A stretch of DNA of 64,000 bases, from contig NZ_ML214297.1 of the NCBI RefSeq assembly GCF_004698125.1, positions 1,834,891 to 1,898,890 on the forward strand. The letters run 5' to 3'. Position 1 is the stretch's first letter. Each line of letters begins with the position of its first letter. Shown here piece by piece: positions 10,422 to 26,862 of the stretch. Under the pieces are notes generated by a model. The model was not told the origin of the DNA, did no database searches, and saw only the letters and a list, made by a program, of their open reading frames with translations. Position numbers and translations under genes: made by a program. Origin of the DNA: Halosimplex halophilum. Its GTDB lineage: Archaea > Halobacteriota > Halobacteria > Halobacteriales > Haloarculaceae.

Positions 10422-11108
10422 TCAGACCACGGTGAACTGGTCGGCGACCTTCGTCTCGACGGACTCGTCCTCCGCTTCGACGGTGACCTCGTAGCGGTAG
10501 GTCCCGCGTTCGGTCTCGGGGCTGGTGGCGATCTTCGACCCCCAGGTGTCGGCGTCGTAGGCCTCGTGGTCGCCCTCCCAGTTCAGCTCCAGCGGGCCGT
10601 ACTCGGCGTCGGGGAACTCGACGCGGACGGCGTCGACGGCGTCGTCGTCAAGCGGCTCCCCCGTCTCGGGGTCGTAGAGCGCGACGTGGAGGCCGACCTC
10701 CATCCCGGCGGCGAACCGGCCGAGGCTGGCACAGGCGGTGGTCGTCGGCGGCGGCGTCGGGGTCGGCGTGGGGGTCGGCGTCGGGGTCTCCTCGGAGCCC
10801 CCGTCGGGGTCGTCGGTCCCGTTGCCGTCGCCGGGGTCCGACGGGGTGGCCGGGCCGACGGGCTCGTCGGTGGTGGTCGTCTCGGTCGTGACCGTCGGCG
10901 TGTCGGTGTCGTCGTCGCCCGTCCCGGGGTCGGTGATGTACTGACAGCCGGAGACACTCGCCGTGGCCCAGGTCGCCGCGCCCGCCGCCATGAGTCGCCG
11001 TCTCGTCACTCGCCCGTCGCTCGACCCCGACCGTTCGTCCTCGCCAGGCGGTTCGCCCTGTTCGCCCGCGCGGTCGTCGCGGTCGACGCCGGAGGTGTCG
11101 TCAGCCAT
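10422..11108 (-). CDS. Tat lipoprotein, paralog of the divergent neighbour
   Basis: A 228-residue exported lipoprotein. A 30-residue acidic leader precedes a Tat motif (TRRRLMAAG) and lipobox (VSGC); a Thr/Asp-rich linker with a TP repeat run follows; the last 110 residues form a beta-rich domain (RFAAGMEVGLHVALYDPETGEPL to the YEVTVEAEDES end). The same domain occurs twice in the divergent neighbour at 11214, sharing the YDPETG and GTY-Y-V-V patterns and a Cys just before it. It is likely displayed on the cell surface; no ligand or enzyme function is recognised. Its TATA-like gttttac (complement of 11136-11141) is about 30 bases from the start. Confidence 0.8.
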   Translation of the reverse strand: MADDTSGVDRDDRAGEQGEPPGEDERSGSSDGRVTRRRLMAAGAATWATASVSGCQYITDPGTGDDDTDTPTVTTETTTTDEPVGPATPSDPGDGNGTDDPDGGSEETPTPTPTPTPTPPPTTTACASLGRFAAGMEVGLHVALYDPETGEPLDDDAVDAVRVEFPDAEYGPLELNWEGDHEAYDADTWGSKIATSPETERGTYRYEVTVEAEDESVETKVADQFTVV

Positions 11109-11213
11109 CTCGCTAGGGTCTTCGGCTGGTTTCGGGTAAAACGGCGGGCGTATCTCCCAGCGAGTAGGAACTACGGGGAGGGTTTAGTCGACACCTCCGG
11201 GAGTTGTGTGTGT
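11109..11213. promoter_or_regulatory. Divergent promoter for two paralogous lipoprotein genes
   Basis: The 105-bp gap contains TATA-like boxes for both directions: tttag at 11183-11187 for the rightward gene (ATG 11214) and the complement of gtaaaa at 11136-11141 for the leftward gene (ATG 11108). Each is 27-30 bases from its start codon, as expected for leaderless haloarchaeal transcripts. The shared region suggests joint control of the pair. Confidence 0.55.
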
Positions 11214-12254: not shown

Positions 12255-12791
12255 ATGAGCCACCCAGACGACACGCGACCCGAGGAACCGACCGGCGACG
12301 ACCCCGAGGAGTCCGCGGTCGACGACGGCGTCGAGCGCCTGGAGTTCGCCGACGCCGTCTACATCGACGCCGAGCCCGAGGCGCTGTGGGCGTGTCTGTC
12401 GGACCCGGAGACGCTCACGGAGTGCGTGCCCGGGGCCGACGCCATCGAGCGGCTCTCGGAGCGGCGCTACTCGGTGGAGATCACGCGGGGGGTGAGCCGC
12501 CTCACCGTCTCGCTGTCCGGCGAGGCCGAGTTCGTCGAGATGGACCCGCCGGACCACGTCGTCACGAGCGCGAGCGCCTTCGACTCGACGACCGGCAGCG
12601 AGTTCGACGTGCTCGCCGCCATGGAGATCCAGGACGGCGACCGCCACGCCTCGAAGCTGGCCTACAGGGCCGAGGTGACCTACAGCGGCGGCGCCGCCAC
12701 GCTCAACCCGTCGGTGTTGCGCCCCATCGTCGAACGCGACATCGACACCTACTTCGCGAACCTCACGGCGGCCATAGAGAGCGACGACTGA
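12255..12791 (+). CDS. CoxG-like SRPBCC protein (copy 1)
   Basis: A 178-residue protein with a 30-residue acidic leader followed by a CoxG/SRPBCC fold: the opening EPEALWACLSDPETLTECVPG matches the family hallmark 'vw..l.Dp..l..c.PG', and the C-terminal IVERDIDTYFANL helix closes the lipid-like pocket. In carbon monoxide dehydrogenase systems CoxG anchors or matures the molybdenum enzyme. A second CoxG (22881-23330) is encoded inside the molybdenum hydroxylase operon 10 kb away, so this copy may have another partner, perhaps the upstream lipoprotein. Cytosolic or membrane-associated; no transmembrane helix. Confidence 0.82.
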   Translation: MSHPDDTRPEEPTGDDPEESAVDDGVERLEFADAVYIDAEPEALWACLSDPETLTECVPGADAIERLSERRYSVEITRGVSRLTVSLSGEAEFVEMDPPDHVVTSASAFDSTTGSEFDVLAAMEIQDGDRHASKLAYRAEVTYSGGAATLNPSVLRPIVERDIDTYFANLTAAIESDD

Positions 12792-12822: not shown

Positions 12823-13395
12823 TCACCACAGTCCTCTGTGGCTCGTGAGCACGAACCCCGGCGGGTCCTCCGGGTCGCCGTCGCCGAACAGCTCCGCAAG
12901 GAACGACAGCGAGTAGGTGTGGCCGGCGATCTCGACCGGCCGCCGCTCGGGCGGCTCGTCGAAGCGCTCGGCGTACCGTTCGACCGTGTCGCGGTTGACC
13001 TGGAGGCCGTACCGGCGCCGCAGCAGCCGCTCGCAGGCGGTCGGCGACCGCTCGGCCGCGTGGAAGCGACACAGGTCGACGACGGGCTTGGCGTAGTCAC
13101 AGTCCGGGTAGAACAGCCCCGAGAGGTCGCCCTGGTAGGAGCGCCCGCAGGCCGTACACTCGTACTGCTGGACGGCGACGCCCACGTCCTCGATCCCCTC
13201 GTCGGTGACCAGCCGCGCGACCGTCTTGGGCTCGCGCTGGGAGCCGTTCTTCCGGCGCTCGGTCGACCCGCAGCCGGGACACGGCCGCGGGTCGCCGGCC
13301 CGCTCGCCCGCGTAGCTCCGTAGCTCCTCGTGGATCGCGCTGACGAACAGCGGCGAGACGACCGGGTCCGGCGCCTTCTCCGTCGGGCCGCGCAT
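12823..13395 (-). CDS. Zinc-ribbon plus HTH protein, transposase-derived or regulator
   Basis: A 190-residue protein. C39/C42 (CPGCG) and C80/C83 (CTACG) form a zinc ribbon like that at the N-terminus of many transposases; residues about 105-150 look helical and HTH-like (SPTACERLLRRRYGLQVNRDTVERYAERF). No DDE catalytic domain follows, and the length stops at 190, so it is not an active transposase. I favour a DNA-binding regulator. ATG 13395 is preferred over an upstream TTG. It is divergent from the ABC importer operon, and direct repeats lie in the shared promoter region, which fits a local regulator. Confidence 0.65.
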   Translation of the reverse strand: MRGPTEKAPDPVVSPLFVSAIHEELRSYAGERAGDPRPCPGCGSTERRKNGSQREPKTVARLVTDEGIEDVGVAVQQYECTACGRSYQGDLSGLFYPDCDYAKPVVDLCRFHAAERSPTACERLLRRRYGLQVNRDTVERYAERFDEPPERRPVEIAGHTYSLSFLAELFGDGDPEDPPGFVLTSHRGLW

Positions 13396-13506: not shown

Positions 13507-13520
13507 ATGTCTTCCCAGCA

Positions 13521-13547
13521 GATAGCAATCTGCGCTATCCGTTTATC
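13521..13547 (+). promoter_or_regulatory. Inverted repeat and TATA box of the ABC importer operon
   Basis: GATAGC (13521-13526) and GCTATC (13534-13539) are inverted arms with a 7-base centre, directly before a TATA-like TTTATC (13542-13547). The box is 25-30 bases before the ATG at 13572, which predicts a leaderless mRNA. A protein bound to the inverted repeat would cover the BRE/TFB site and should repress. Confidence 0.6.
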
Positions 13548-13571: not shown

Positions 13572-14864
13572 ATGACGGACCAGCGTTCAGCCGACGCCGA
13601 GCGGCCACACGAGGACCGACGGCGCCGGACCGGTTCGCCCTCGCGCCGGGCGTTTCTCGCGACGGGCGCGGCGGTCTCGGCGGCGTCGCTCGTGGGCTGT
13701 CTCGGGTCGGGTTCGACGGCGACCTCGACGCCCGACGCGGGCGGGGAGGCGACGAGCGGCGGGGGCGGATCGACGGCCGGCGCGAGCGCGACGGCGGCCG
13801 GCGAGCCCGAGCCGCCGTGGACGACGGATCAGCTCGCCGACTACGTCGACGACGGGGCGGAGGTCACCATCTACGCGGGGACGGGCGACTCCCAGCAGTG
13901 GTACGACCTCGTCGACGTGATCAACGACGAGTTCGGCACGAGCGTCGAGGCGACGGTGTTCGCCAGCGACGGCGCCGCGGTCTCCCAGCGGCTCCTCCAG
14001 GAGCGCCAGGCCGGCGAGGACAAGGCCGACGTGATCAGCGTCGCGTCGAACCTCCGGGACCGGATCAAACAGAAGGGCCGCGAGGAGGGGACCGCCTACG
14101 CGAAGGAGTGGTTCGAGTGGGGGATCGACGAGAACTTCTGGTTCACCGACGCCCTGCCCGACAAGCGGGTCCTCCCGTTCCTGGTGTCGGGGTTCAACGG
14201 CGGGGCCGGCGTCGTCCTCCCGGTGAGCACGGGGACCTTCGACGAGCGGGGGCTGGACTACCCCGAGACGTACAACGATCTGTTCGACGACCAGTACGAG
14301 GGGCTGGAGGTGGCCTTCTCCGGGTACGTCAGCTCCGGGATGATCGGCTGGATCACCCGCTACCACGCCGCGCAGACGGACATGGGCGAGATGGAGTGGA
14401 TCCGGAGCCTGATGGACCGCTTCGAGGTGGTCGGGGTCGACTCCCACTCGGCCGGGATGCGCGAGGTCGGGAAGGGCAACGCCGCGATGATGCTGTACAA
14501 CTGGCCGTGGGCCGCCGCCCCGTTCGTCAGGAACGAGGACCTGACGGTGGAGGGCATCTTCACCGACCCCGCCAAGCGCAACGCCACGGAGGGCGGCCTG
14601 AGCATCAACCGGAACGCGCCCCACCCGTGGGTCGCCCGCTACTTCGTCAGCGCGATGCTGGAGAAGCCGGTCCAGCGCCGCATCCTGACCGACGTGACCG
14701 ACCAGGTGCCCGTCCGGACCGACCTGGATCTGTCCGGCATCGACGTCGACCCCTACACGGAGCGGCGGCTGAACGCGAACCTCTTCCCCATCGGATTCTG
14801 GGAGTCCGCCGAGTACTCCACGCTCGGCCAGAAGGTCGTCGACACCGGGATGTTCGAGCCGTAG
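13572..14864 (+). CDS. ABC importer substrate-binding lipoprotein
   Basis: A 430-residue Tat lipoprotein: RR motif in PSRRAFLATG, lipobox VGC near residue 43, a Gly/Ala/Ser linker, then a family 1 solute-binding fold starting at EVTIYAGTGDSQQWYDLVDVIN, the layout of Fe(III)/putrescine/thiamine-type binding proteins. The C-terminal part (GLSINRNAPHPWVARYFVSAMLEKPVQRRIL) is the usual hinge-to-end region. It should capture a small ligand outside and deliver it to the permease encoded next. The ligand is not evident. The convergent oxidative gene cluster downstream suggests an organic acid, but iron cannot be excluded. Confidence 0.87.
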   Translation: MTDQRSADAERPHEDRRRRTGSPSRRAFLATGAAVSAASLVGCLGSGSTATSTPDAGGEATSGGGGSTAGASATAAGEPEPPWTTDQLADYVDDGAEVTIYAGTGDSQQWYDLVDVINDEFGTSVEATVFASDGAAVSQRLLQERQAGEDKADVISVASNLRDRIKQKGREEGTAYAKEWFEWGIDENFWFTDALPDKRVLPFLVSGFNGGAGVVLPVSTGTFDERGLDYPETYNDLFDDQYEGLEVAFSGYVSSGMIGWITRYHAAQTDMGEMEWIRSLMDRFEVVGVDSHSAGMREVGKGNAAMMLYNWPWAAAPFVRNEDLTVEGIFTDPAKRNATEGGLSINRNAPHPWVARYFVSAMLEKPVQRRILTDVTDQVPVRTDLDLSGIDVDPYTERRLNANLFPIGFWESAEYSTLGQKVVDTGMFEP

Positions 14865-14994
14865 CCGACGGTCGCGGCCGGCCGGGAGGCGCAGGCCGCC
14901 CCGGCGAACGAAGCGACCGACGGGACACCCCGACGGCGGTTTCCACTCACAGCATGGACAGCACTGACCCCACGAACGCGTGCGGAGGCGAACG

Positions 14995-16767
14995 ATGAGC
15001 GTCCGCAACGAGGTGGTCGCCGCGTTCAGGGACGGCATCGGCGGGCTCGCGGACCGCCAGTTTTCGGCCAAACGGTTCGTCCTCGGGACGGTGGTCGTCG
15101 CCGTCGCCGTCCTGACGCTGGTGCCGCTGGGCTTCCTGCTGTGGACGAGCGTCTGGTCGGGCTACCCCGGCGAGCTCGGCGGCGCGTTCACGCTCGCCCA
15201 CTTCGTCGAGGTGTACCGCGAGGGTTTCTTCGACGTGCCGACGCTGCTGGCCAACACCCTGATCGTCGCGGTGGGGATGACGGTCACCGGTATCGCGCTC
15301 GGGCTCACCCTGGCGTGGCTGTTCGTGCGGACGAACCTCCCGACGAAGGGCGGGCTGGAGCTGGTCCTGCTGTCCGGACAGGCGATCCCGGGGTACGTCT
15401 TCGGGATCATGTACGTCACCGCCTACGGGCCGCAGAACGGGCTCGTCTCGGTCGCCGTCGCCGACGCCGTCGGCGTGGAGTCGCTCTCGGTCGGCCTGTT
15501 CACCCCGTGGGGGGTCGCGTTCGTCGCCGGGGTCAACGTCGTCTCGACGGCGTACCTCCTGACGGTGCCCGCGCTGCAGGACATGGACGCGTCGTTCGAG
15601 GAGGTGAGCCGGATCCACGGGGCGAGCGTCGCCGAGACGCTCCGGTCGGTCACGCTCCCGCTGGTGAAGCCGGCCGTCCTCTCGGCGGTGATCACGGTCT
15701 TCCTCTACGGGATGGGCGAGTTCGCCATCGTCTCGGTGCTCGGCTCGCGCCACGGGTTCGACGTGTACTCGACCGTGATCGGGTCGGCGATCAACTCCCG
15801 GTTCCCGCCCGCCTACGGCGAGGCCGCGGCGCTCGCCTGTAGCCTGCTGCTCGTGACGGGCGTGCTCGTCTACTACTACCGGCGGGTGACCGCCCGGAAG
15901 CGCGACTTCATGACGCTGACCGGGCGGAGCGGGCGACGGCGGACCTGGGACCTGGGTCGGTGGCGGTGGCCGGTGGCCGCCGGGCTGTGGGTCGTCGTCG
16001 GCCTCGTGTGGCTCCTGCCGATCCTCGCGCTGGCGCTCACGTCGCTGCACTCGACGTGGACCGGACAGGTCCAGCCGGCCCAGCTATCGGTCGAACACTA
16101 CGTCACGGCGGTCACGAGCCCGGCGCTGCGCGAGGTGTTCGCCAACAGCGTCGTCGTCGCGGTCGGCGCGGCGACGCTCGGGACGGTCCTCGTCGTCGGG
16201 GCGGCCTACTACACCGAGCGGACCGACGGGCGCTTCCGCGGCGCGGTGGACTTCCTGACGCTCACGCCGCTTGCGGTGCCGGGGATCATCACCGGCGCCG
16301 GTCTCATCTTCCTGAGCCTCTGGCTCGGCAAGCTCCCCGGCGTGACGCTGTACGGGACGCTCGCCATCATCGCCCTCGGCTCTGTGATCGTCTTCCTCCC
16401 CGTCTCCTCGCGGATCGCGGTCGGGAACGTCGTCCAGATCCACTCGGTGCTGGAGGAGGCCGCCCGGGTCGCCGGCGCCTCCTGGCTCCGGCAGCTGCAC
16501 GAGGTCTTCCTGCCGCTGTTCCGCAACACGGCGGTCGTCCTCTGGTTCTTCCTGGCGGTCCACGTGTTCCAGCTGTTGTCGATCCCGTGGATGACCTACT
16601 CCTCGGATACGGTGGTGATCCCCGTCGAGCTGTTCCAGCTGTACATGTACGAGCCGGCGCTGTCGCTGGTCGCCGCCATCTCGACGGTGTTCATCGGCCT
16701 CACCGTCCTCGTGGTGCTCGCGATGCGTGTCTGCGGGATCACCTTCTACGAACTCGGACAGCACTAG
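14995..16767 (+). CDS. ABC importer permease, fused double domain
   Basis: A 590-residue membrane protein with about 12 transmembrane helices in two homologous halves, each carrying a BPD_transp_1 EAA loop: EEVSRIHGASVAETLRSVTLPL near residue 205 and EEAARVAGASWLRQLHEVFLPL near 490. This fusion of two permease domains is typical of Fe(III)/thiamine-type importers. It lies 130 bp after the binding protein on the same strand. The ATG at 14995 precedes the first helix (FVLGTVVVAVAVLTLVPLGF) by about 30 residues. Confidence 0.9.
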   Translation: MSVRNEVVAAFRDGIGGLADRQFSAKRFVLGTVVVAVAVLTLVPLGFLLWTSVWSGYPGELGGAFTLAHFVEVYREGFFDVPTLLANTLIVAVGMTVTGIALGLTLAWLFVRTNLPTKGGLELVLLSGQAIPGYVFGIMYVTAYGPQNGLVSVAVADAVGVESLSVGLFTPWGVAFVAGVNVVSTAYLLTVPALQDMDASFEEVSRIHGASVAETLRSVTLPLVKPAVLSAVITVFLYGMGEFAIVSVLGSRHGFDVYSTVIGSAINSRFPPAYGEAAALACSLLLVTGVLVYYYRRVTARKRDFMTLTGRSGRRRTWDLGRWRWPVAAGLWVVVGLVWLLPILALALTSLHSTWTGQVQPAQLSVEHYVTAVTSPALREVFANSVVVAVGAATLGTVLVVGAAYYTERTDGRFRGAVDFLTLTPLAVPGIITGAGLIFLSLWLGKLPGVTLYGTLAIIALGSVIVFLPVSSRIAVGNVVQIHSVLEEAARVAGASWLRQLHEVFLPLFRNTAVVLWFFLAVHVFQLLSIPWMTYSSDTVVIPVELFQLYMYEPALSLVAAISTVFIGLTVLVVLAMRVCGITFYELGQH

Positions 16768-16834
16768 GCGTCGGTCGCCCCGGCTCTCCGGTCGGTTCGC
16801 CCCCGAGTTCCCGCGCCCCGCGCTCCGGGACGTT

Positions 16835-16860
16835 CCCACCGCGTAGAAATCCGCGGTGGG
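16835..16860 (+). other. 9-bp stem-loop between permease and ATPase genes
   Basis: CCCACCGCG (16835-16843) and CGCGGTGGG (16852-16860) pair perfectly around an 8-base loop, 68 bp after the permease stop. A TATA-like ggttaatg follows directly at 16861-16868. The hairpin may end or stabilise the upstream mRNA, with an internal promoter restarting transcription for the ATPase gene. Confidence 0.45.
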
Positions 16861-16957
16861 GGTTAATGCGTGGGCGCGGTACCGACACGTGAGCGCGGCG
16901 GGCCGTCGCCGAACCGGGACGACCGGCTCGTCGGCCCGCCGGGAGACCACCACAGCT

Positions 16958-18067
16958 ATGGACACGGACACGCGGCTGACGGTACGGGACCTGGAGAAGG
17001 GGTTCGGCGGCGAGTTCCGGCTCTCGGGCGTCGACGTGACGGTCCGACCCGACGAGATCGTGGCCCTGCTCGGCCCGAGCGGCTGCGGCAAGACGACGGT
17101 CCTCCGCTGTGTCGCCGGCGTCGAGACCCCCGACGGCGGCGAGATCGCCGTCGACGGCGAACCGGTCTTCGACGGGGACAGGTCGCTGCCGCCCGAGCGC
17201 CGGGACCTGGGGATGGTCTACCAGAACTACGCGATCTGGCCCCACAAGACCGTCTACGAGAACGTCGTCTTCCCGCTCGAACACGCGACGGACGTGCCGA
17301 GCGACGAGTACGATCGGCGGGTCGCGGAGGTGCTCGAACTGATGGAGATCGGCGACCTCGCCGAGTCGCCGGCGACCGACCTCAGCGGCGGCCAGCAACA
17401 GCGGACGGCGCTCGCCCGCGCCATCGTCCACGACCCCGGACTCCTGTTGCTGGACGAGCCGCTGAGCAACCTCGACAAGGAGCTGCGCGAGCAGATGCGC
17501 TACGAGCTCCAGCGGCTGCAACACGAACTCGGGCTCAGCGTGCTGTACGTGACCCACGACCAGCAGGAGGCCTTCTACCTGGCCGACCGGGTGCTCGTGA
17601 TGAACGACGGCGAGGTCGTCGAGCGCGGCGACCCGGAGACGCTGTACCGGCGGCCCGAGTCGCCGTTCACCCGGCAGTTCGTCGGCGTCCGCAACCGGTT
17701 CACCGGGACGACCGAGCGCGACGGCGACGGCGAGCGGGTCGTCCGGACGGGGTTCGTCGACTTCCCGCTGGGCAACGTCGACTACGTGGGCAACGGCGGC
17801 GAGACCGACGAGGTGGCGTGTTTCCTCCGCCCCGACGACATCAACGTCGGCCAGTTCGCCGGCGAGACCGACGGGCGCATCGAGCTGTCGGGGACCGTCG
17901 TCGCCGAGGGGATCATCGGCGACCGCTACGAGCTGACGGTCCGGGTCGACGACACCGACGCGACGCTGGTCGTCCACACCGACAGCTACCGGCAGTTCGA
18001 CCGCGGCGACGGGATCAACCTCCAGTTCCAGCCGAAGGTCCTGCAGGTCTACGAGGCCGAGGCCTGA
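16958..18067 (+). CDS. ABC importer ATP-binding protein
   Basis: A 369-residue cytosolic ATPase. Walker A GPSGCGKTT near residue 40, a Q-loop YQNY, signature LSGGQQQR, Walker B LLLLDEPLSNLD and switch His in THDQQEA are all intact; a C-terminal TOBE-like domain (from about 240) suits the Fe/spermidine/thiamine class. ATG 16958 gives the standard N-terminus. An in-frame GTG at 16889, about 25 bases after a TATA-like sequence, could give a 23-residue longer leaderless product. It ends 60 bp from the convergent decarboxylase-like gene. Confidence 0.92.
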   Translation: MDTDTRLTVRDLEKGFGGEFRLSGVDVTVRPDEIVALLGPSGCGKTTVLRCVAGVETPDGGEIAVDGEPVFDGDRSLPPERRDLGMVYQNYAIWPHKTVYENVVFPLEHATDVPSDEYDRRVAEVLELMEIGDLAESPATDLSGGQQQRTALARAIVHDPGLLLLDEPLSNLDKELREQMRYELQRLQHELGLSVLYVTHDQQEAFYLADRVLVMNDGEVVERGDPETLYRRPESPFTRQFVGVRNRFTGTTERDGDGERVVRTGFVDFPLGNVDYVGNGGETDEVACFLRPDDINVGQFAGETDGRIELSGTVVAEGIIGDRYELTVRVDDTDATLVVHTDSYRQFDRGDGINLQFQPKVLQVYEAEA

Positions 18068-18127: not shown

Positions 18128-19126
18128 TCAGGTGCGCGCGACCGAGCAGTCGACGAACAGCTCGTCGAGGTCGTACGGCTCGGGGATCAGCCCCTGGCGG
18201 TCGGCGTACTCCTGGAACTTCTCCAGTTCGGGGACGGTCCGGTCGGTCAGTCCGTACTCCCAGGCGTCCTCGCCGAGGACCCGGTCCTGTTCGACGAGGT
18301 GCAGGTGCGCCCAGGTGTTGGTCGTGTGAGTGCTGGGGCTGAGGTTGGCTTCGAGGGCGTCGTCGCGGGCCTCGCGGAACGCGTCGAACAGCGAGACGGC
18401 GAGCCACGGGTGGTCGTCGAGGAGTTCGTCGCGGACGGCGACGGTGTGCATGATCGGGTGGATCCCGGTGTCGCGGTAGTACTCGCGTTCGGTCTCGACC
18501 GGGTCGTCGAACATGAGCGCGGCCTCGTCGGACTCGACGACGCTGTGGAACATGGCGTTGGCCGGCTCCATGGCGGCGACCAGGTCGCTGTCGAAGAACA
18601 TCGCCCGCAGGTCGTCGGGGTCGACCATCGCCTCGCCGCCCTGCTCGCCCGGCACCGTCCGGATGTCGAAGCGGTCGGGGATCGAGACCGGCACGTCGTC
18701 CTCCTTGCGCCGGTACCAGGTCACGTCCGACAGGTCGAGGCCGTACCGTTCCCGGGCGATGCCGCGCATCCACACGTCCCGGGTCGTCTGCCAGGACTGG
18801 ACGCCCACCCGCTCGCCCGCCAGGTCCGACGGGTCCTCGATGCCGGCGTCGGTCCGCCGGTAGCAGAACGACTGGGGGAACTTCTTGCACGGGAAGACGG
18901 GGATCGCGGTGAAGGGGTACTCCCCGGGGCGCTCCCGCGAGGAGAGGTACGACGCCAGCGACACCTCGCACACGTCGAACTCGCCCCGCTCGAAGAAGCG
19001 ACGGTGGCGCCGCGGCGGGTACTCGGCGATGACGGTCGGGTCGACGCCGTCGGGTTCGACCGCGCCCGTCAGCAGCGACCGCGTCAGGTCGCGCGTCCAG
19101 CAGGCGATCGAAAGATCCAGTGCCAT
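18128..19126 (-). CDS. 4,5-dihydroxyphthalate decarboxylase-like protein (copy b)
   Basis: A 332-residue protein of the family annotated as 4,5-dihydroxyphthalate decarboxylase, which has the periplasmic-binding-protein (NMT1-like) fold. It starts MALDLSIACW with no signal peptide, so it should be cytosolic and not a classical transport receptor. Shared with copy a (23443-24414) are VEPDGVD/VEPEGID, EFDVCE-S-YL, PFTAIPVFPCKKF, TGIHPIMH and WEYGLT. It lies 95 bp after the 2Fe-2S subunit gene and is the last gene of the molybdenum hydroxylase set. Decarboxylation of a dihydroxylated aromatic acid is the family-based hypothesis; ligand binding without catalysis is the alternative. Confidence 0.78.
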   Translation of the reverse strand: MALDLSIACWTRDLTRSLLTGAVEPDGVDPTVIAEYPPRRHRRFFERGEFDVCEVSLASYLSSRERPGEYPFTAIPVFPCKKFPQSFCYRRTDAGIEDPSDLAGERVGVQSWQTTRDVWMRGIARERYGLDLSDVTWYRRKEDDVPVSIPDRFDIRTVPGEQGGEAMVDPDDLRAMFFDSDLVAAMEPANAMFHSVVESDEAALMFDDPVETEREYYRDTGIHPIMHTVAVRDELLDDHPWLAVSLFDAFREARDDALEANLSPSTHTTNTWAHLHLVEQDRVLGEDAWEYGLTDRTVPELEKFQEYADRQGLIPEPYDLDELFVDCSVART

Positions 19127-19221
19127 ACCTCGACTTCCCGCGTCGCGGCCGTAAGCCCGGTCGAAAAGCCCGCTCGACGGGAGGCGACGCAACGCTTAAC
19201 CGGACGAATCCGGGACCGCGG

Positions 19222-19692
19222 TCACTCCGCTTCGCCCCGGCGCTCCGCGACCGCCTCGACGGCGTCGAGGATCTTCTCGTAGCCGGTACACCGACAGACG
19301 TTACCCGACAGGGCCGACCGGAGCGTCTCGCGGTCGGCGTCGGGATGGTCGTCGAGGGAGGCCAGCGCCGACAGCACGAACCCCGGCGTGCAGTAGCCAC
19401 ACTGCAGGGCGCTGTGGTCCTCGAAGGCGTCCTGCACCTCGCGGCCGAGGGTCCCGTCGGCGACGCCCTCGACGGTCGTGACCGAGCGGCCGTCGACCTT
19501 CGCGGCCATGACCAGACAGGCCTTCACCGCCTCGCCGTCGAGCAGGACGGTGCAGGCGCCGCAGCGGCCGCCGTCGCAGCCCGCCTTGACGCTCAGGGCG
19601 TCGCAGTCCTCCCGGAGCAGTTCGCGCAGCGAGCGGTCGGGGGCCGTTTCGACGGTCCGCTCCTCGCCGTCGAGGTCGAAGGAGACTCTCAC
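19222..19692 (-). CDS. Molybdenum hydroxylase 2Fe-2S subunit (CoxS-like)
   Basis: A 156-residue subunit with two 2Fe-2S clusters. The plant-type N-terminal cluster uses C39, C44, C47 and C59 (GCDGGRCGACTVL); the C-terminal cluster uses C98, C101, C133 and C135 (QCGYCTPG and CRCTGY). It carries electrons from the molybdenum site in the large subunit to FAD in the medium subunit. The GTG start at 19692 overlaps the TGA of the medium-subunit gene (GTGA), which both selects this start and shows coupling. All eight cluster cysteines are intact. Confidence 0.93.
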   Translation of the reverse strand: MRVSFDLDGEERTVETAPDRSLRELLREDCDALSVKAGCDGGRCGACTVLLDGEAVKACLVMAAKVDGRSVTTVEGVADGTLGREVQDAFEDHSALQCGYCTPGFVLSALASLDDHPDADRETLRSALSGNVCRCTGYEKILDAVEAVAERRGEAE

Positions 19693-20585
19693 GGCGATCC
19701 CCCCGCTCGGCGGACCGCGCTCAGCAGGCTCCGCTCGACGAGCGTCGCGGCGAGCCGGCGCTTGTAGGCGGCCGACCCCGCCTCGTCGTCGATCGGGTCG
19801 ATGTCCTCGGGGGCGCGCTCGCTCGCGGTCGCGACGGCGGCGTCGGTCGCCGGGCCACCCACGAGGTCGTTCTCGACCGCGTGCGCGCGGACGGGCGTGT
19901 CCGCGACCGCCGAGCACGCGACGCGGACGCGTTCGACCGCGCCGTCGGCGAGGGTCACCACGGCGGCGGCGCCGGCGGTCGCCCGCCCCGACTCGACGGC
20001 GGCGTGGCGCTCGTAGGCCGTGCCCGCCCGCTCGGGGTCGAGCCGGTCGAAGGTCACGCCGGTCACGAGTTCGTTCTCGCGTCGGTCCGTGCGGAGGTGG
20101 CCGACCAGAAACTCCCCCAGCGGGACGCGCCGGCGGCCGTCCGGGTCGGCCAGTTCCACCGAGGCCGCCAGCGCGCACAGCGGCGCGAGCAGGTCGAACG
20201 TCGGGTCGCCGTGCGCGACGGCCCCGCCGACGGTCCCGAGAGCCCTGACCTGTCGGTCGGCGACCACCGAGCAGGCGTCGCCCAGCGCGGCGGCGCGGTC
20301 GCTCAGGTCGTGGCGGGCCAGCTCTGCGTAGGTCGTCGTCGCGCCGATACTCGTCCGGTCGTCGGCGACCGCGACGCCCGACAGTTCCGGAATCGCACTC
20401 ACGTCGACGAACGCGTCGGCGTCGACCAGCCCCTGGCGGACTAGCGGCATCAGCGTCTGCCCGCCGGCGACCACGCGGGCGCGGCCGTCGGCCTCGTGCA
20501 GGCGCCGACACGCCGCCGCGACCGTCTCCGGCCGGTAGTAGTCGGCCTCCGTCCCGCCGGTCGCGTCCGCACGACCGTCAGTCAC
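19689..20585 (-). CDS. Molybdenum hydroxylase FAD subunit (CoxM-like)
   Basis: A 298-residue FAD-binding subunit of the xanthine dehydrogenase/CO dehydrogenase family. FAD pyrophosphate motifs are visible: VVAGGQTLMPLVRQG (about 35-50) and the second TVGGAVAHGDP segment, close to the canonical 'TiGGnla'. It passes electrons from the 2Fe-2S subunit to the final acceptor. I place the start at GTG 20585, which overlaps the large-subunit stop by 8 bp; ATG codons at about 20612 and 20630 are possible but add a repetitive N-terminus overlapping the upstream gene. Confidence 0.88.
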   Translation of the reverse strand: MTDGRADATGGTEADYYRPETVAAACRRLHEADGRARVVAGGQTLMPLVRQGLVDADAFVDVSAIPELSGVAVADDRTSIGATTTYAELARHDLSDRAAALGDACSVVADRQVRALGTVGGAVAHGDPTFDLLAPLCALAASVELADPDGRRRVPLGEFLVGHLRTDRRENELVTGVTFDRLDPERAGTAYERHAAVESGRATAGAAAVVTLADGAVERVRVACSAVADTPVRAHAVENDLVGGPATDAAVATASERAPEDIDPIDDEAGSAAYKRRLAATLVERSLLSAVRRAGGSP

Positions 20586-22884
20586 CGTCCGCACCCCCGT
20601 CACCGCCTGCATCCTCATCACCGTCCGCACCGCCGTCGAGCGCGAAGCACACGTCCTCGTCGCGGACGGGCGCCGCAGTGAACCGCTCGCCGACGGCGTC
20701 GCGGACCGCGTTGGTGACCGCGGGCGCGACGGGCGTGATCGACGGCGTGCCGACGCCCTTCGCGCCGTACGGGCCAGACGCCTCCTCGGACTCGACGATC
20801 TCGCAGGCCAGTCGGTCGGGCATCTCGGCGGGCGAACTCACCGGGTAGTCGGCGAGCGTCGCGTTGGTCGGGACACCGTTTTCGAGCCGCAGCTCCGAGG
20901 TGAGCGCGAACTCCACCCCGTGCTGGACGGCGCCCTCGATCTGCCCCTCGACGAGCGTCGGGTTGATCGCGTAGCCCACGTCCTGGGCGGCGACGTAGGC
21001 GGTCACGTCGACGGCCCCGGTCCCGGTGTCGACGGCGACCTCGGCGAAGTGGACGCCGTAGGCCAGCGGCGCCGTGTCGGTCTCCGCCCGGCCGGTGACC
21101 GCGAGGGGGGCGTCGACGAGCGCGCCGAGCGGAACGGCGCTCCCGTCGGGCGCTTCGACGCGTCCCTCCCGGACGGTGAGGTCCTCGGACGGCGCGCCGA
21201 GGCGGTCGGCCGCGCGGGAGCGCAGGCGCCCACCGAGCGTGTCGGCGCCGTCGCGGATCGCCGCGCCGACCAGGTACGTCGTCCGGTTGGCGACCGAGCC
21301 GTACTTGTCGTCGACGGCGTCGTCGGGGTCGTACCCCTGGACGGCCACCCGGTCGAGGGGCAGTCCGGTCGCCTCGGCGGCGATCTGGGCGAGGGCGGTC
21401 GCGGCGCCCTGGCCCACGTCGATGGCGCCCGTGCGGACGACCAGCGAGCCGTCGGGCGCCAGGGTCAGCCGCGCCTCGGCGTAGTCGTCGTTCTTCCCGG
21501 CCGCCGGGGTCGTGATCTGTCCGCCCGCGGCGACGCCCCGGCCGTAGACGGTATCCTCGTCCCGCTCGTCGCCGGATTCGACGTCCGTCCGCAACTCGGC
21601 GAACCGCTCGCGGCCGCGGTCGAGACACGCCCGGAGGCCGCAACTGCCGACCGGCGTGTCGGCGTGGGGTCGCTCGTCGCCCTCGGCGACCCAGTTGCGC
21701 CGGCGGAAGGCGACCGGGTCGAACCCGGCACGGCGGGCGAGTTCGTCGAGGTGCGACTCCAGCGCCCAGGTGACCTGCGTGACGCCGATGCCGCGGTACT
21801 CGCCGGCCGGCGGGTTGTTCGTGAACGCGGAGACCCCCTCGAAGCGGTAGTTGTCGACTCTGTAGGCGTCCAGCGGTCGGCCGCGACAGGCGCTCAGGAC
21901 GACGTGGCCGACGCCGTTGGGGTACGGGCCGGTGTCGGCGACGGCGTCGACCGCGAGCGCGGTGAGCCGGCCGTCGTCGGTCGCCCCCGCCTTCAGGTCG
22001 AGGTGAGTCGCGTGGCGCGACTCGGCGGCCGAGAACTCCGTCTCGCGGTCGAATTCGAGGCGGACCGGCCGTCCGGCCTCCCGCGCGAGCGCGGCGGCGA
22101 CCGGTTCGAGGGTGAGCTTCGCCAGCGAGCGGCCGCCGAAGCTCGACCCCGCGGTCGGGGGGCGCTCGATCGCGACCTCGCAGTCATCGAACAGCCGTTC
22201 GAGGGTCTCCTCGGCGTGGCCCCGATTACCCATCGTCGCGGTCACGCGGAGCCGGTCGCCGTCCCAGTCGGCGACCGCGCAGTGGCGGTCGAGGTTGCAG
22301 TGGGTGACCCGCGGCGTCCGGTAGCTCGCCTCGTGGACGTGGTCGGCGGCCGCGAACGCGGCGTCGGGGTCGCCCACTTCGAGCGCGTGATAGTCGTCGA
22401 CGTTCCGGACGTACTCCGGGTTGTCGACGTCCAGGGGGTGGCGGTCGGGCTGGCCGAACGCGGGGTCGGACTGGACGACCGGGGCGTCGGCGCGGACGCT
22501 CTCGCGGGGGTCGTGGACCGACTCCAGCGGGTCGAGGTCGAACTCGACGGCGTCCAGCGCCGCCTCGACGGCTGCGGAGGTCTCGGCGGCGACGGCCGCG
22601 ACGGCGTCCCCGTAGTGGCGGACGCGGTCGTCGAACCCCCCCGGGAGGTCCCACCGCGGGAGCACGGCGGCCACGTCGTCCATCGCGGCGGCCGCGTCGG
22701 TGTCCAGCCCCGCGACCTCGGCGTGGGGGACCGGCGACCGGACGACGCCCCCGACGAGTGCGTCGGGGTGCTCCATGTCGGTCGCGTAGCGGGCCCGGCC
22801 GCGGACCTTCGCCCGGGCGTCCTTGCGCGGGGACGACTTCCCGACGGCGGACTTCGGTCCGGGGCCGGACCGCTCGCGGCTCAC
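20578..22884 (-). CDS. Molybdenum hydroxylase large subunit (CoxL/xanthine dehydrogenase family)
   Basis: A 768-residue molybdopterin-binding subunit. Family landmarks include the aldehyde-oxidase a/b hammerhead start (KVRGRARYATDME), TAGSSFGGRSLA in place of GGGFGGK, GEYRGIGVTQ corresponding to the AYRGAGR loop of non-CO enzymes, and AIDVGQGAATALAQIAAE. It lacks the AYxCSFR motif of true CO dehydrogenases, so CO oxidation is unlikely. In the C-terminal active-site motif GAKGVGxP, residue 713 is Thr where the catalytic base Glu is expected. GTG 22884 overlaps the CoxG stop (GTGA). A reaction on a non-CO aromatic or heterocyclic substrate, or altered chemistry, is inferred. Confidence 0.9.
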   Translation of the reverse strand: MSRERSGPGPKSAVGKSSPRKDARAKVRGRARYATDMEHPDALVGGVVRSPVPHAEVAGLDTDAAAAMDDVAAVLPRWDLPGGFDDRVRHYGDAVAAVAAETSAAVEAALDAVEFDLDPLESVHDPRESVRADAPVVQSDPAFGQPDRHPLDVDNPEYVRNVDDYHALEVGDPDAAFAAADHVHEASYRTPRVTHCNLDRHCAVADWDGDRLRVTATMGNRGHAEETLERLFDDCEVAIERPPTAGSSFGGRSLAKLTLEPVAAALAREAGRPVRLEFDRETEFSAAESRHATHLDLKAGATDDGRLTALAVDAVADTGPYPNGVGHVVLSACRGRPLDAYRVDNYRFEGVSAFTNNPPAGEYRGIGVTQVTWALESHLDELARRAGFDPVAFRRRNWVAEGDERPHADTPVGSCGLRACLDRGRERFAELRTDVESGDERDEDTVYGRGVAAGGQITTPAAGKNDDYAEARLTLAPDGSLVVRTGAIDVGQGAATALAQIAAEATGLPLDRVAVQGYDPDDAVDDKYGSVANRTTYLVGAAIRDGADTLGGRLRSRAADRLGAPSEDLTVREGRVEAPDGSAVPLGALVDAPLAVTGRAETDTAPLAYGVHFAEVAVDTGTGAVDVTAYVAAQDVGYAINPTLVEGQIEGAVQHGVEFALTSELRLENGVPTNATLADYPVSSPAEMPDRLACEIVESEEASGPYGAKGVGTPSITPVAPAVTNAVRDAVGERFTAAPVRDEDVCFALDGGADGDEDAGGDGGADGD

Positions 22885-23330
22885 GCCCGGGCCCCCACGC
22901 GGTCGACGAGGTTCTCGAAGTAGGTCTCGACGTTGGCGCGGACCTGCCGGCGGAGGACCCGCGACCCCATCGTCGCCAGTCGCCCGGTGAACGTCACGTC
23001 CACGTCGTAGGCCAGCTCCGTCGCCGCTCCCTCCCCGGTCAGCGTCACCGTCACGTCGGCGTCCATGCGGCTCCCGGTCCGCGAGTCCGTCCCGGTTCCG
23101 GTGAAGCGGAGCCACTCGGGTCGCTCGCGCTCCTCGATACGGACCTCGCCGTCCAGCGCCACGTCGATCCCCGTGATCCGCTGGCGGATCACCCCCTCGT
23201 AGCGGTCCTCGGAGGCCCGCGAGATCTCCTCGGCGCCCATGACGCAGGCGGTCAACACGGCCGGGTCGGTCACCAGGTCCCAGGCCGCCGACCGCTCGAC
23301 CGGGACCGTCTCCGTTCCCTCGAACTCCAT
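22881..23330 (-). CDS. CoxG-like SRPBCC protein (copy 2)
   Basis: A 149-residue SRPBCC protein of the CoxG family: MEFEGTETVPVERSAAWDLVTDPAVLTACVMG opening and the closing RQVRANVETYFENLVDRV helix. It is directly upstream of, and GTGA-coupled to, the molybdenum large subunit, which is the normal setting for a CoxG that helps bind the enzyme to the membrane. It is shorter than copy 1 because it lacks the acidic leader. It begins 112 bp after the decarboxylase-like gene copy a. Confidence 0.9.
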   Translation of the reverse strand: MEFEGTETVPVERSAAWDLVTDPAVLTACVMGAEEISRASEDRYEGVIRQRITGIDVALDGEVRIEERERPEWLRFTGTGTDSRTGSRMDADVTVTLTGEGAATELAYDVDVTFTGRLATMGSRVLRRQVRANVETYFENLVDRVGARA

Positions 23331-23442
23331 ACGGGAGCGTCGGGACGACCGACATAAACACCCGACGGCGAATCCCGCCGAGTGGGAGCGCCAGCGGTCC
23401 CGTCCGGCGTCCCGGTTCCAGGCCCCGACCGCGTCGGGCGGT

Positions 23443-24414
23443 TCAGGCGTAGTAGTCGGTGTCGAGGTGGTCGGTCGCGAACAGTTCGCCCGCGTCGTAG
23501 CGCTCGGCGGCGACCCCCTGGTCGTGGGCGTACCCGGCGAGCGTCTCGACGGCGGCCACGTTGTCCTCGGTGAGCCCGTACTCCCACGGGTCGTCGCCCA
23601 GCACCGACCGCTGTTCGTCGGCGTACACGTCCGCCCACACGAGCGGGAGTTCGCGGGGCCGCTCCAGCGCGCCGAGCCCGATCTCCTTGGCGCGCTCGAA
23701 AGCGTCGTACAGCGGCTGGACGACCCACGGGTGCTCGTCGAGAATCTCGTCGCGGACGACGATGGCGTGCATGATCGGGAAGATCCCCGTCTCGCGGTAG
23801 TAGGTCTGTTCGACGGCCTTCGCGTCGTCGAACAGCCGGCGGGCGTTCGAGACGCCGGCGTCGACCGGGTGGAAGACGCCGTCGATCTCGCCCCGCTCGA
23901 TCATGTCCTCCAGCAGGCCGATCGTCGACCCCTGGTGGCCGACGTACTCCAGGTCGATCCGGTCGGGCACGTCCACGTCGACGATCTCCGAGCCGCCGGC
24001 GACCCACTCGACGGCGCCCAGGTCGAGCCCGTGGCGGTCGGCGAGGGTGCCGCGCTGCCAGACCCCCGTCGTCGTCTGCCAGTTGACGATGCCGACGCGA
24101 CGGCCCGCCAGATCCGCGACCGAATCGATCCCGGCGCCCTCCCGGACGTACATGTACGCGTGGCGGAACTTCCGGAAGGGGAAGGCCGGGATCGCCGTGA
24201 ACGGGAAGCGGTCGGCGTCGCGGCGGGTGGCGAGGTAGGTCCCCATCGACAGCTCGCAGGCGTCGAACTCCAGGTCCCGGACCATCCGGGAGAACCGGAC
24301 CGGGTTGGGGTAGTTCACCGCCGACAGGTCGATCCCCTCGGGTTCGACGCGGCCGTCGCGGAGCGGTTGCGTCCAGGCGTACGGGTGGACCGCGAGCGAC
24401 AGGTCCAGCGCCAT
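23443..24414 (-). CDS. 4,5-dihydroxyphthalate decarboxylase-like protein (copy a)
   Basis: A 323-residue cytosolic protein of the NMT1-like, binding-protein fold, beginning MALDLSLAVHPYAW without a signal peptide. Family features include VEPEGIDL, FDACELSMGTYL, FPFTAIPAFPFRKFRHAYMY, GRRVGIVNWQTT and TGIFPIMHAIVVRDE. Its ATG (24414) overlaps the stop of the IPT/TIG-like gene (ATGA), so the two are probably made in equal amounts and may form a complex. With copy b it flanks the molybdenum hydroxylase genes, which supports a pathway in which ring hydroxylation and decarboxylation follow each other. Confidence 0.8.
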   Translation of the reverse strand: MALDLSLAVHPYAWTQPLRDGRVEPEGIDLSAVNYPNPVRFSRMVRDLEFDACELSMGTYLATRRDADRFPFTAIPAFPFRKFRHAYMYVREGAGIDSVADLAGRRVGIVNWQTTTGVWQRGTLADRHGLDLGAVEWVAGGSEIVDVDVPDRIDLEYVGHQGSTIGLLEDMIERGEIDGVFHPVDAGVSNARRLFDDAKAVEQTYYRETGIFPIMHAIVVRDEILDEHPWVVQPLYDAFERAKEIGLGALERPRELPLVWADVYADEQRSVLGDDPWEYGLTEDNVAAVETLAGYAHDQGVAAERYDAGELFATDHLDTDYYA

Positions 24415-25859
24415 CACTCGGTGACCTCGAAGGCCATGTGCAGGGCGGGCAGCGGCCGGACGGGGTGGTTGTCGAGATACGAGAGGTGCGGCCGCACCTC
24501 GAAGACCGGCTTCTCCTCCTGCATGTCGAAGAGGCTGGGGTAGATATCGACGAAGTGCCAGCCGGGCTCGCCGGCCGCGCGGAGCCGCGCGTGGACGGTG
24601 CCCTCCTTGTCGTCGCCGGCGGTGCCGCAGACGTAGCCCAGCGGCGTGTTGTCGTAGACGAAGAAGGGCGCGTTCTCGTAGATGGTCCAGCCGATCCCCG
24701 ACAGCTCGATGTCGATCTCCGTCCCGACGGGGCCGCGGACGGGCGCGAACGTCTCGATCGAGGGCTGCATCATAAAGCCCGTCACCGCCACCTCGCGGCC
24801 GTCGACGGCGGCGGTGATCGGCCGGGTCGACCCCTCGGCGCGGGGGATGGCGATCTCGGTCTGGAAGCTGCCCTCCGAGTCGGTCTCGACGGTCGGGAGC
24901 ACGTCGGGCTTGGGCTCGGGCGTGATCGGGATGCCCTTGACGCGGTGGCCCTCGTGGCGGTACCAGATCAGGTCGACCTCGGTCTCGGCGGGGAAGTTCC
25001 GGCCGGTGAGCACGGCGGTCGTCCCGGCCTGGCCGGAGGGCGGGGAGATCTCCAGTTCGGCCTCGCTGTCGGCGTCGATCTCGGGGTAGTGGACGCTCAT
25101 CGGCTGCTCGTCGAGCAGCGGGTCGACCCAGGCGGTCCGGGGGTCGTCGTCGGGTTCGGTCACCTCGACGGTCCAGACCGACTGGCGGCCGCCGGCGACC
25201 GGGCCGTAGGGCGACTGGGTGTTGTTCTGGAGGTAGGGCACGCCCTTGTAGTTGCGCCACACCTGGATGACGTGCTCGCCGGGCGGGCCGACCGCGCGGA
25301 TCTCCGCGGTGGCGGTCCCGCGGTTCATCACGCCGGTCATAAAGCCGACGTTGCCGTTGTCCCAGGACACCTGATAGTTGTTCGTGACGACGTTCGGCCC
25401 GATCCCGTGGCCGGTGATCGTAAACGCCTCGCCCAGCGGCGCCGCGGTGCGGTCGATCTCGAAGTGGGGCGTGACCGAGAACTCGTCGCGGGCGACGACG
25501 TTGCCGTCGCCGTTCGTGACCTGGATCCGGTGGGCGCCGCCGTAGTCCTCGGGGATCGTCCACGTCTCGTCGAAGGCGCCGTCGGCGTCGGTCCGGACGG
25601 TCCCGATGCGGTCGGTCCGGGGCTGGTACTGCGGGCCGACGACCTCGTTGCCCTCCAGGACCCCCCACCGGCCCTCCGTCGAGTTCCACAGCAACTCGTA
25701 CTTCTCGTCGGCCGGGAAGTTGCGCCCCTTCAGCGTGATCTCGTCGCCAACGTACCCCTCCTCGTCGCTCAGCACCAGCGTCCCGTCCGAGCCGCTGCCG
25801 CGGCGGTGGCGCTGGAGCGTCTCCTTCAGGTCGCTGGACACTCCGGATTCGTCGTCCAT
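24414..25859 (-). CDS. IPT/TIG-like beta-repeat protein without signal peptide
   Basis: A 481-residue protein built of four or so beta-sandwich units. Two begin almost alike: GYVGDEITLKGRNFPADEKYEL (about 33) and SGQAGTTAVLTGRNFPAETEVDL (about 285); two further units begin with APLGEAFTITGHGIGP and GPVGTEIDIELSGIGW. These 'P.G...i.itG.nF' openings are the IPT/TIG pattern, normally extracellular. Here the N-terminus (MDDESGVSSDLKETLQRHRR) has no Sec or Tat signal, so a cytosolic location is predicted. It is coupled to the decarboxylase-like copy a and precedes the molybdenum hydroxylase genes. Function unknown; scaffold for the pathway is inference. Confidence 0.75.
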   Translation of the reverse strand: MDDESGVSSDLKETLQRHRRGSGSDGTLVLSDEEGYVGDEITLKGRNFPADEKYELLWNSTEGRWGVLEGNEVVGPQYQPRTDRIGTVRTDADGAFDETWTIPEDYGGAHRIQVTNGDGNVVARDEFSVTPHFEIDRTAAPLGEAFTITGHGIGPNVVTNNYQVSWDNGNVGFMTGVMNRGTATAEIRAVGPPGEHVIQVWRNYKGVPYLQNNTQSPYGPVAGGRQSVWTVEVTEPDDDPRTAWVDPLLDEQPMSVHYPEIDADSEAELEISPPSGQAGTTAVLTGRNFPAETEVDLIWYRHEGHRVKGIPITPEPKPDVLPTVETDSEGSFQTEIAIPRAEGSTRPITAAVDGREVAVTGFMMQPSIETFAPVRGPVGTEIDIELSGIGWTIYENAPFFVYDNTPLGYVCGTAGDDKEGTVHARLRAAGEPGWHFVDIYPSLFDMQEEKPVFEVRPHLSYLDNHPVRPLPALHMAFEVTE

Positions 25860-26016
25860 GTGTGTCCGTTCGCGGCTCCCTCGAATACGTCTGTGCCACC
25901 TTCCACGCTGGCGGTGGACACGGCAAGAGTTAAGGGGTGAGCGGCGGCCGCGGTCGCCGTTCGCGACCGCGGCGGAAACCGAGAAGGGGACTGCCGGAGC
26001 GGCCGACGGGACCGAC

Positions 26017-26547
26017 TTACCCGAGGAACAGCCGGAGCTGTGGGTAGTCTTTGACGATGTCGAGTTCCTCGATGCGGGCGTCGAGGCCGAGGATCCGGCC
26101 GGCGCCGAACGCGCCGAGGCCGAACAGGAGGAACACGTACACCATGTGGTAGTCGATGAGCAGGGCGTTGTCGAAGGGGTAGGAGGCCAGCCAGTAGAAC
26201 AGCATCATGGTGGCCCCCCAGAACGCGCTGAACCGGACGAGCACGCCGAGGATCAGCGCGAGTCCGACCAGCGTCAGGCCGAGCTGGTTCAGCGGCGTCA
26301 GCAGCCACGCCCACTCGTTGCCCATCGTCGTCCACAGGCCGGTCAGCGGGTTGCCGTCGGGGATCCCGTACAGCAGGAACCCGCGGACGCTCCACTCGGG
26401 GTTGACGACCTTCGTGATCCCGGCGTAGAAGAACGTCCAGCCCATGATGACCCGAAGCGCGAACAGCGCGTAGCCGATCCACGTCTCGGAGTAGGTGAAC
26501 TGCACGTCCCAGCCGAACACCTTGGATTCGAGTTCTCGCGTCGCCAT
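26017..26547 (-). CDS. DoxX/DoxD-like membrane protein
   Basis: A 176-residue protein with four predicted transmembrane helices (about 25-45, 85-105, 110-130 and 135-155) and the DoxX/DoxD family start FALRVIMGWTFFYAGITKVVNPEWS. DoxD is the larger subunit of thiosulfate:quinone oxidoreductase in Acidianus; most DoxX relatives are uncharacterised. It lies 157 bp upstream of the IPT/TIG-like gene on the same strand, with a TATA-like ttatcc about 28 bases before its own start. A role in passing electrons from the molybdenum hydroxylase to quinone is speculative. Confidence 0.78.
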   Translation of the reverse strand: MATRELESKVFGWDVQFTYSETWIGYALFALRVIMGWTFFYAGITKVVNPEWSVRGFLLYGIPDGNPLTGLWTTMGNEWAWLLTPLNQLGLTLVGLALILGVLVRFSAFWGATMMLFYWLASYPFDNALLIDYHMVYVFLLFGLGAFGAGRILGLDARIEELDIVKDYPQLRLFLG

Positions 26548-26862
26548 ACGCCCACGTTCTCCCAGAACGCGGATAAGCCGTGTCGTGATTCCCAGCCGCT
26601 GGGACCCGGTCGAGCGGCGCCGGCGCCCCGAGACCCGGAAAACCGCCGGAACGCGCCCGAATCAGCGGCGTGTGCCGACCCGGCCGCGGACGGCCCCGTG
26701 CCCACCCGTTCCCGGGCGGTAAGAAGCCCGTCCCGGCTTGAAGGAGGCTGCCGTGGAAGCTTCTCACACGGCCGGGGACACCGGTCGCGGTCCGAGTGTC
26801 GTCGCCGCTCGCCGCGGATCCGACGGCCGGGACGGCGAACCGCTCCCCGACGGTGATCCACC
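26548..26862. other. 315-bp divergent intergenic region
   Basis: It separates the leftward DoxX-like gene and the rightward small membrane gene. I see the DoxX promoter (complement of cggataag near 26570) and short palindromes such as CCCAG/CTGGG near 26603-26615, but no coding frame with protein-like composition. Confidence 0.4.

Follow-up and report, generated by a model that had tools for sequence, protein, structure and literature searches.

This analysis concerns a 64-kb window of the Halosimplex halophilum genome (the whole stretch of DNA that was analysed, haloarchaeal and 71% GC, in which all coordinates given below are positions), and within it a cluster of eight minus-strand genes at 18128-26547. 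From the higher to the lower coordinate, these encode a DoxX-family membrane protein, an IPT/TIG-like protein, a Pht5-like protein (a), a CoxG-family protein, the large, flavin (FAD) and 2Fe-2S subunits of a molybdenum hydroxylase, and a second Pht5-like protein (b). The positions that the original prediction, made from the sequence alone, had given for the eight genes were confirmed, as were their types, by Pfam and PDB matches, and the convergent ATP-binding cassette (ABC) importer that it had placed at 13572-18067 is present as well (Table 1). The domains of the xanthine oxidase family (MoCoBD_1/2, FAD_binding_5/CO_deh_flav_C and Fer2/Fer2_2) all scored above the Pfam cut-offs in the three subunits, and membership in this family by descent is firm. 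The large subunit carries a threonine at the position of the catalytic glutamate, and the genes around it are separable parts of a mosaic.

The catalytic base of the xanthine oxidase family is a glutamate, such as Glu1261 in bovine xanthine dehydrogenase (XDH) and Glu726 in 4-hydroxybenzoyl-CoA reductase (4-HBCR). When aligned with solved structures, Thr713 of the large subunit matches Glu726 of 4-HBCR and the corresponding glutamate of PaoC and CoxL. Threonine is present in seven out of seven members of the clade, which comprises two haloarchaeal families, while glutamate occupies this position in all 32 other aligned homologues and in four out of four further bacterial ones. In the tree the threonine clade is separated by a long stem with 100/100 support, and two other changes have been fixed along with Thr713: Glu199 to Asp (glutamate in 31 of the 32 others) and Gly-Gly to Ser-Ser at 247-248. 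Of the usual pocket residues, Gln492, Phe249 and Arg364 are kept, Arg364 in all seven members, with the glycine next to it varying in one. Sequencing error or gene decay was ruled out as the source of Thr713, which is fixed in seven members at a ratio of nonsynonymous to synonymous substitution rates (dN/dS) of about 0.26. Mouse AOX1 with the E1265Q change at the equivalent glutamate is inactive (PMC2671166), and because that change abolishes activity, Thr713 argues against ordinary hydroxylation. The textbook mechanism is not to be taken for granted in large subunits of the threonine type; Thr713 replaces the base and, therefore, if the enzyme hydroxylates, another residue or the carboxylate of the substrate itself would have to activate the Mo-OH group.

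One explanation is that the enzyme performs a chemistry other than base-assisted hydroxylation, such as the dehydrogenation of an alcohol- or dihydrodiol-like substrate, the reductive loss of a substituent from the ring, or a hydroxylation in which the substrate carboxylate serves as base. The joint fixation of Glu713Thr, Glu199Asp and the Ser-Ser pair on a long, fully supported stem fits such a change of function, as does the purifying selection that continues in the threonine clade. Since the usual pocket residues have been retained and there is no direct evidence for any of the alternative reactions, we consider this explanation rather unlikely.

The nearest solved relatives of the hydroxylase are 4-HBCR and nicotinate dehydrogenase. 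Compared with the structures of 4-HBCR (1rm6), nicotinate dehydrogenase (3hrd) and PaoABC (5g5g), the haloarchaeal enzyme has the same subunit set, cofactor domains and Gln492, Phe249 and Arg364 positions, but differs in Thr713, in the aspartate at the position of Glu199, in inserts near 242-254, and in the presence of CoxG and Pht5-like partners in its locus. The beta subunit of 4-HBCR carries an extra 4Fe-4S insert. Identity with 4-HBCR was rejected on the NCBIfam scores of the alpha (383/995 bits) and beta subunits (85/405 bits, a partial match; 298 aa). Aerobic CO dehydrogenase likewise combines large, FAD and 2Fe-2S subunits with a CoxG-family partner, but where it has its copper-binding cysteine loop (CSFR), the haloarchaeal enzyme reads YRGIG, with no cysteine; this difference and a CoxL equivalog score of 168/991 bits led to the rejection of this identity too. 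Xanthine dehydrogenase proper was also discarded, as Ser253 aligns with the substrate-binding glutamate (bovine residue 802) and XdhA scored 411/780 bits. Finally, there is a likeness, in description, to a bacterial molybdenum hydroxylase for which a CoxG membrane anchor has been proposed.

Three further Halosimplex genomes, G161, H. carlsbadense and H. pelagicum, share the order of all eight genes and, along with them, of the importer and another CoxG gene (protein identity about 80-97%), so that the original prediction withstands the refutation it had set itself, a gene order found in no other genome. All genes are under purifying selection, with dN/dS values of 0.09-0.38. The hydroxylase itself is present in four out of eight Halosimplex genomes. 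A reduced form of the locus was identified in a different genus (G165), consisting of b, the 2Fe-2S, FAD and large subunits and CoxG, followed by TIG and DoxX, where maturation genes for the molybdenum cofactor (XdhC and a MocA-type gene) stand in place of a; an XdhC gene, of the type associated in the xanthine oxidase family with a molybdenum cofactor bearing a sulfido ligand, is also present in the host genome. In the Halosimplex genome G275, DoxX, TIG, a and the importer are intact, and the region from CoxG to most of b has been lost in one stretch, leaving a frameshifted remnant of b. Because of this loss with the rest intact, the hydroxylase (CoxG, large, FAD and 2Fe-2S genes) is a detachable insert, and the IPT/TIG, DoxX, Pht5-like and importer genes constitute a wider shell that also exists without it.

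This shell was followed across 292 haloarchaeal genomes. TIG homologues with 57-97% identity were found in 19 of them, the host included, and Pht5-like genes in 14, with both occurring together in ten genomes compared to about 0.9 expected (P 8e-11, not corrected for relatedness). DoxX and TIG recur together, with 12 loci in all. In six loci of other haloarchaea (L043-L046, L050 and L051) TIG is accompanied by CoxG2, an NMT1-type importer, HTH_10 regulators and an NrfD-like protein, as well as by a 4Fe-4S protein and a secreted tandem 2Fe-2S ferredoxin; this suggests that the shell there is joined to another redox enzyme system. A search of plasmid DNA returned no close DNA relatives of the locus.

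The predicted ATGA/GTGA coupling at four junctions holds as far as the overlaps are concerned, which number four, but only two of them (CoxG/large and FAD/2Fe-2S) share an exact GTGA and none an ATGA; the TIG/a junction reads TGATG, and the large and FAD genes overlap by 8 nt. Gaps of 157, 112 and 95 nt separate DoxX from TIG, a from CoxG and the 2Fe-2S gene from b, respectively, and in upstream regions compared across Halosimplex, DoxX, CoxG and b are each preceded by a conserved TATA-like box. A single eight-gene operon is ruled out by these gaps and boxes and by the separable modules, and at least four transcription units make up the mosaic. The idea of one inseparable module was thus abandoned, given these several units and the detachability of the hydroxylase (G275, G160 and G313).

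In the same Halosimplex comparison, each of the three TATA-like boxes is preceded by TCCC-N7-GGG, and the window contains three copies of this combination, exactly at DoxX, CoxG and b. When up to three mismatches are allowed, there are 16 copies of the fuller palindrome TTCCCA-N5-TGGGAA in the window, compared to 8.2 expected, and none of 100 shuffles reached 16. Five of the 16 sites lie 45-56 bp before start codons (DoxX, CoxG, the binding protein, the divergent C3 pair and a truncated globin), with a nominal P of 6e-7 that is optimistic, the palindrome having been noticed post hoc. The site upstream of CoxG is conserved in loci L030, L054 and L055, with a similar form in L036, and the TIG genes of G050, G153, G194, G284 and G232 have a palindrome 50-52 bp upstream. 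The shared palindromes, which link the C3 genes and the binding protein with DoxX, CoxG and b, suggest one regulon, a suggestion supported by the conservation of the palindrome across genera, and these common operator-like sites support a joint use of importer and oxidase. A PAS/GAF/BAT/HTH_10 protein is encoded at 6759-9800 (minus strand). As HTH_10-type proteins adjoin TIG in several other loci, it may be regarded as a candidate reader of the palindrome. The truncated globin (1468-1845, plus strand) has a near-perfect palindrome 50 bp upstream; it was dropped as a regulon member, this palindrome being only half conserved in G161.

Table 1. Genes and operator-like sites of the Halosimplex halophilum locus.
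Feature	Position	Strand	Evidence or remark
DoxX/DoxD-family membrane protein	26017..26547	-	Pfam DoxX 3.5e-9
IPT/TIG-like protein	24414..25859	-	Pfam TIG 5.8e-7
Pht5-like protein a	23443..24414	-	PDB 9jp7 match 8e-51, 36% identity over aligned part
CoxG-family SRPBCC protein	22881..23330	-	Pfam COXG (PF06240) 2.3e-21
Mo hydroxylase large subunit, Thr713 at catalytic Glu position	20578..22884	-	Pfam MoCoBD_1/2 ~1e-57/1e-55
Mo hydroxylase FAD subunit, 298 aa	19689..20585	-	FAD_binding_5 3.9e-42, CO_deh_flav_C 3.2e-19
Mo hydroxylase 2Fe-2S subunit	19222..19692	-	Fer2_2 8.7e-28, Fer2 2.8e-7; cysteines of both clusters present
Pht5-like protein b	18128..19126	-	PDB 9jp7 match 1e-43
Importer binding protein	13572..14864	+	Tat-like leader and lipobox by eye; place conserved
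Fused ABC permease	14980..16767	+	Nearest NCBIfam PhnU2, far below cut-off; 12 transmembrane-like segments
ABC ATPase	16958..18067	+	Nearest NCBIfam PhnT2, below cut-off
Second CoxG-family protein, in conserved shell	12255..12791	+	COXG 1.5e-21
Secreted lipoprotein-like protein, recurring family C3	11214..12230	+	Pfam: none above cut-off
Second C3-family secreted protein, divergent from first	10422..11108	-	Family recurrence
Palindrome, 1 mismatch, centre 50 bp before DoxX ATG	26589..26605		Core TCCCAGCGGCTGGGA identical in 5 Halosimplex genomes
Palindrome, 3 mismatches, centre 50 bp before CoxG ATG	23372..23388		TATA-like TTTATG between
Partly conserved palindrome TCCC-N7-GGG before b	19168..19182		Then TATA-like CTTACG
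Palindrome, 2 mismatches, centre 52 bp before binding protein	13512..13528		Operator-like
Palindrome between divergent C3 genes, 52 and 54 bp from their starts	11154..11170		Operator-like
Palindrome near ABC ATPase gene	16833-16849		Motif scan

Proteins a and b are 42% identical to each other and full-length homologues of 9jp7, a PDB entry named 4,5-dihydroxyphthalate decarboxylase, to which they are 36% and 32% identical, respectively. They share a T-G-I-x-P-I-M-H block with Pht5, and fall in clades apart from 9jp7; the predicted structure of a, based on a shallow alignment, was poor, with a predicted local distance difference test (pLDDT) score of 32. Both also match NMT1/THI5 and phosphonate-binding profiles, which could mean that the Pht5-like proteins are not enzymes but bind or sense ligands in the cytoplasm as partners of the importer. 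This would agree with the Pht5-like genes of G050 and G178, located among or beside importer genes, and with the annotation of bacterial homologues as substrate-binding proteins. On the other hand, the closest solved structure is named a decarboxylase, neither a nor b has an export signal, and the neighbours of Pht5-like genes include UbiD/UbiX and ring-oxidation genes, so that a role as mere binding or sensing partners seems unlikely to us.

In two haloarchaeal genera (G153 and G245), UbiD, UbiX, an isochorismatase-family hydrolase and a VOC protein occupy the place of the hydroxylase, adjoined by Pht5-like genes and the same importer type. In one bacterium a Pht5-like gene adjoins a Rieske dioxygenase and a Gfo/Idh/MocA oxidoreductase. 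The bacterial phthalate 4,5-pathway employs a decarboxylase homologous to a and b, and comprises a Rieske dioxygenase and a dihydrodiol dehydrogenase, whereas the haloarchaeal locus has neither and holds the molybdenum enzyme in that position. Inspection by eye of locus L147 (G289) revealed a Pht5-like gene with class II aldolase-like, aminomethyltransferase-like, amidohydrolase-like and tripartite transporter genes, a cluster resembling a lignin-aromatic cluster in a haloarchaeon.

No transmembrane segment was predicted in CoxG (22881-23330). Other CoxG proteins have been shown to act as membrane anchors in archaeal and bacterial work, and a role of this CoxG as membrane link is consistent with those studies (PMC11962113). 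In the glycerol-3-phosphate dehydrogenase of S. acidocaldarius a cytoplasmic archaeal dehydrogenase likewise has a cognate CoxG, its catalytic subunit being unrelated to the molybdenum hydroxylase (PMC11962113). DoxX can be assigned to the DoxX superfamily only, since its NCBIfam score for the thiosulfate:quinone oxidoreductase large subunit (22/300 bits) excluded that identity. For the IPT/TIG protein no signal peptide or transmembrane segment was seen. It is predicted to be all-beta with low confidence, its structure model, likewise based on a shallow alignment, is poor (pLDDT 47), and its profile gave chance-level matches only against the PDB; many residues are invariant in an alignment of 20 sequences. 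A bacterial homologue with 29.5% identity, on a plasmid of Deinococcus sp. D7000 (L151, 11935-13362), lies beside AzlC/AzlD genes; AzlC/AzlD-like genes also occur near the threonine-type hydroxylase of G160 (L093). Perhaps the IPT/TIG protein and DoxX hold enzymes at the membrane.

The permease and ATPase of the importer resemble the 2-aminoethylphosphonate type, both below the NCBIfam cut-offs, and the Pfam search with the binding protein found no family at E 0.01. Relatives of the C3 family recur in 18 loci, mostly adjoining a CoxG gene and ABC importers. A zinc-ribbon protein with a weakly ISL3-transposase-like N-terminus is encoded at 12823-13395 (minus strand); it is absent from the other Halosimplex loci, and genes with 68-71% identity are similarly placed in G153 and G194.

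Given what was observed here, namely the types of the genes, their conserved order and mosaic arrangement, the palindromes that their promoters share and the purifying selection, our preferred explanation is a modular haloarchaeal catabolic regulon for the import, oxidation and decarboxylation of a ring acid, which we propose tentatively, at slightly less than even confidence. The ABC importer would take up a small carboxylated ring compound, either aromatic or N-heterocyclic, which the cytoplasmic three-subunit molybdenum enzyme would oxidise, passing the electrons via the 2Fe-2S clusters and FAD. CoxG, by analogy with the studied CoxG proteins, would dock the enzyme at the membrane, where quinone would be reduced, and a and b, to judge from their homology and context, may then decarboxylate the ring.

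Several points weigh against this regulon, in addition to the substitution of the catalytic glutamate and the post hoc choice of the palindrome. The hydroxylase clade of G160 and G313, which belong to another family, has neither Pht5-like nor TIG genes nearby and no palindrome upstream. Decarboxylation by a and b is not certain, because Pht5-like proteins share sequence with binding proteins of the NMT1 family. Searches of the host genome for LigB-type dioxygenases, intradiol dioxygenases and UbiD found none, and gentisate dioxygenase gave sub-threshold matches only, the ring-cleavage search covering these three dioxygenase families; because of these results, no ring-opening step is evident for an aromatic acid. 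Import, hydroxylation and decarboxylation of an aromatic acid, as originally predicted, is backed in one part, by the related decarboxylase-like genes in aromatic-degradation contexts, and is weakened in another, by the missing glutamate and the lack of an evident ring-opening step. In its canonical form, an ordinary molybdenum hydroxylase adding a hydroxyl group to an imported aromatic acid, followed by Pht5-type decarboxylation in one inseparable module, this scheme agrees with the gene types and with 4-HBCR and nicotinate dehydrogenase as nearest solved relatives; the threonine throughout the clade, the separable modules and the failure to find any of the three ring-cleavage families in the host make it improbable.

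Within the ring-acid regulon, the contexts of Pht5-like genes with UbiD and with Rieske and Gfo/Idh genes lean to an aromatic acid, and that of G160 to an N-heterocycle. In G160 the hydroxylase clade is accompanied by an F420-type LLM oxidoreductase, an isochorismatase-family hydrolase nearest to RutB, an M20 deacylase, a urea-amidolyase-associated protein and an NMT1-type importer, and related isochorismatases (41-42%) occur in the Pht5-like loci of G153 and G245. The Halosimplex locus has no amidase, and the only isochorismatase of the genome is located elsewhere and distant, for which reason catabolism of a pyridine- or pyrimidine-like compound rather than a carbocycle is held here to be possible, if doubtful.

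Taken one by one, the components are already known: molybdenum hydroxylases with CoxG, Pht5-like decarboxylases, ABC importers. The literature searched, in which most subscription papers were not included, contained no haloarchaeal system of this make-up and no natural members of the xanthine oxidase family without the catalytic glutamate, and the combination, the organisation in separable cassettes and, above all, the clade lacking this glutamate appear to be undescribed there. It is conceivable, though unlikely, that this clade represents a branch of the xanthine oxidase family with a different or differently assisted reaction, operating with Pht5-like, IPT/TIG and DoxX proteins in an oxygenase-free haloarchaeal ring-acid pathway. 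As a testable candidate, the locus may show how haloarchaea exploit carboxylated ring compounds when no Rieske oxygenase is involved; it also gives the conserved but so far unstudied IPT/TIG protein a definite metabolic setting. As the catalytic glutamate is treated as essential in the family, a clade without it and under purifying selection constitutes a natural test of its role.

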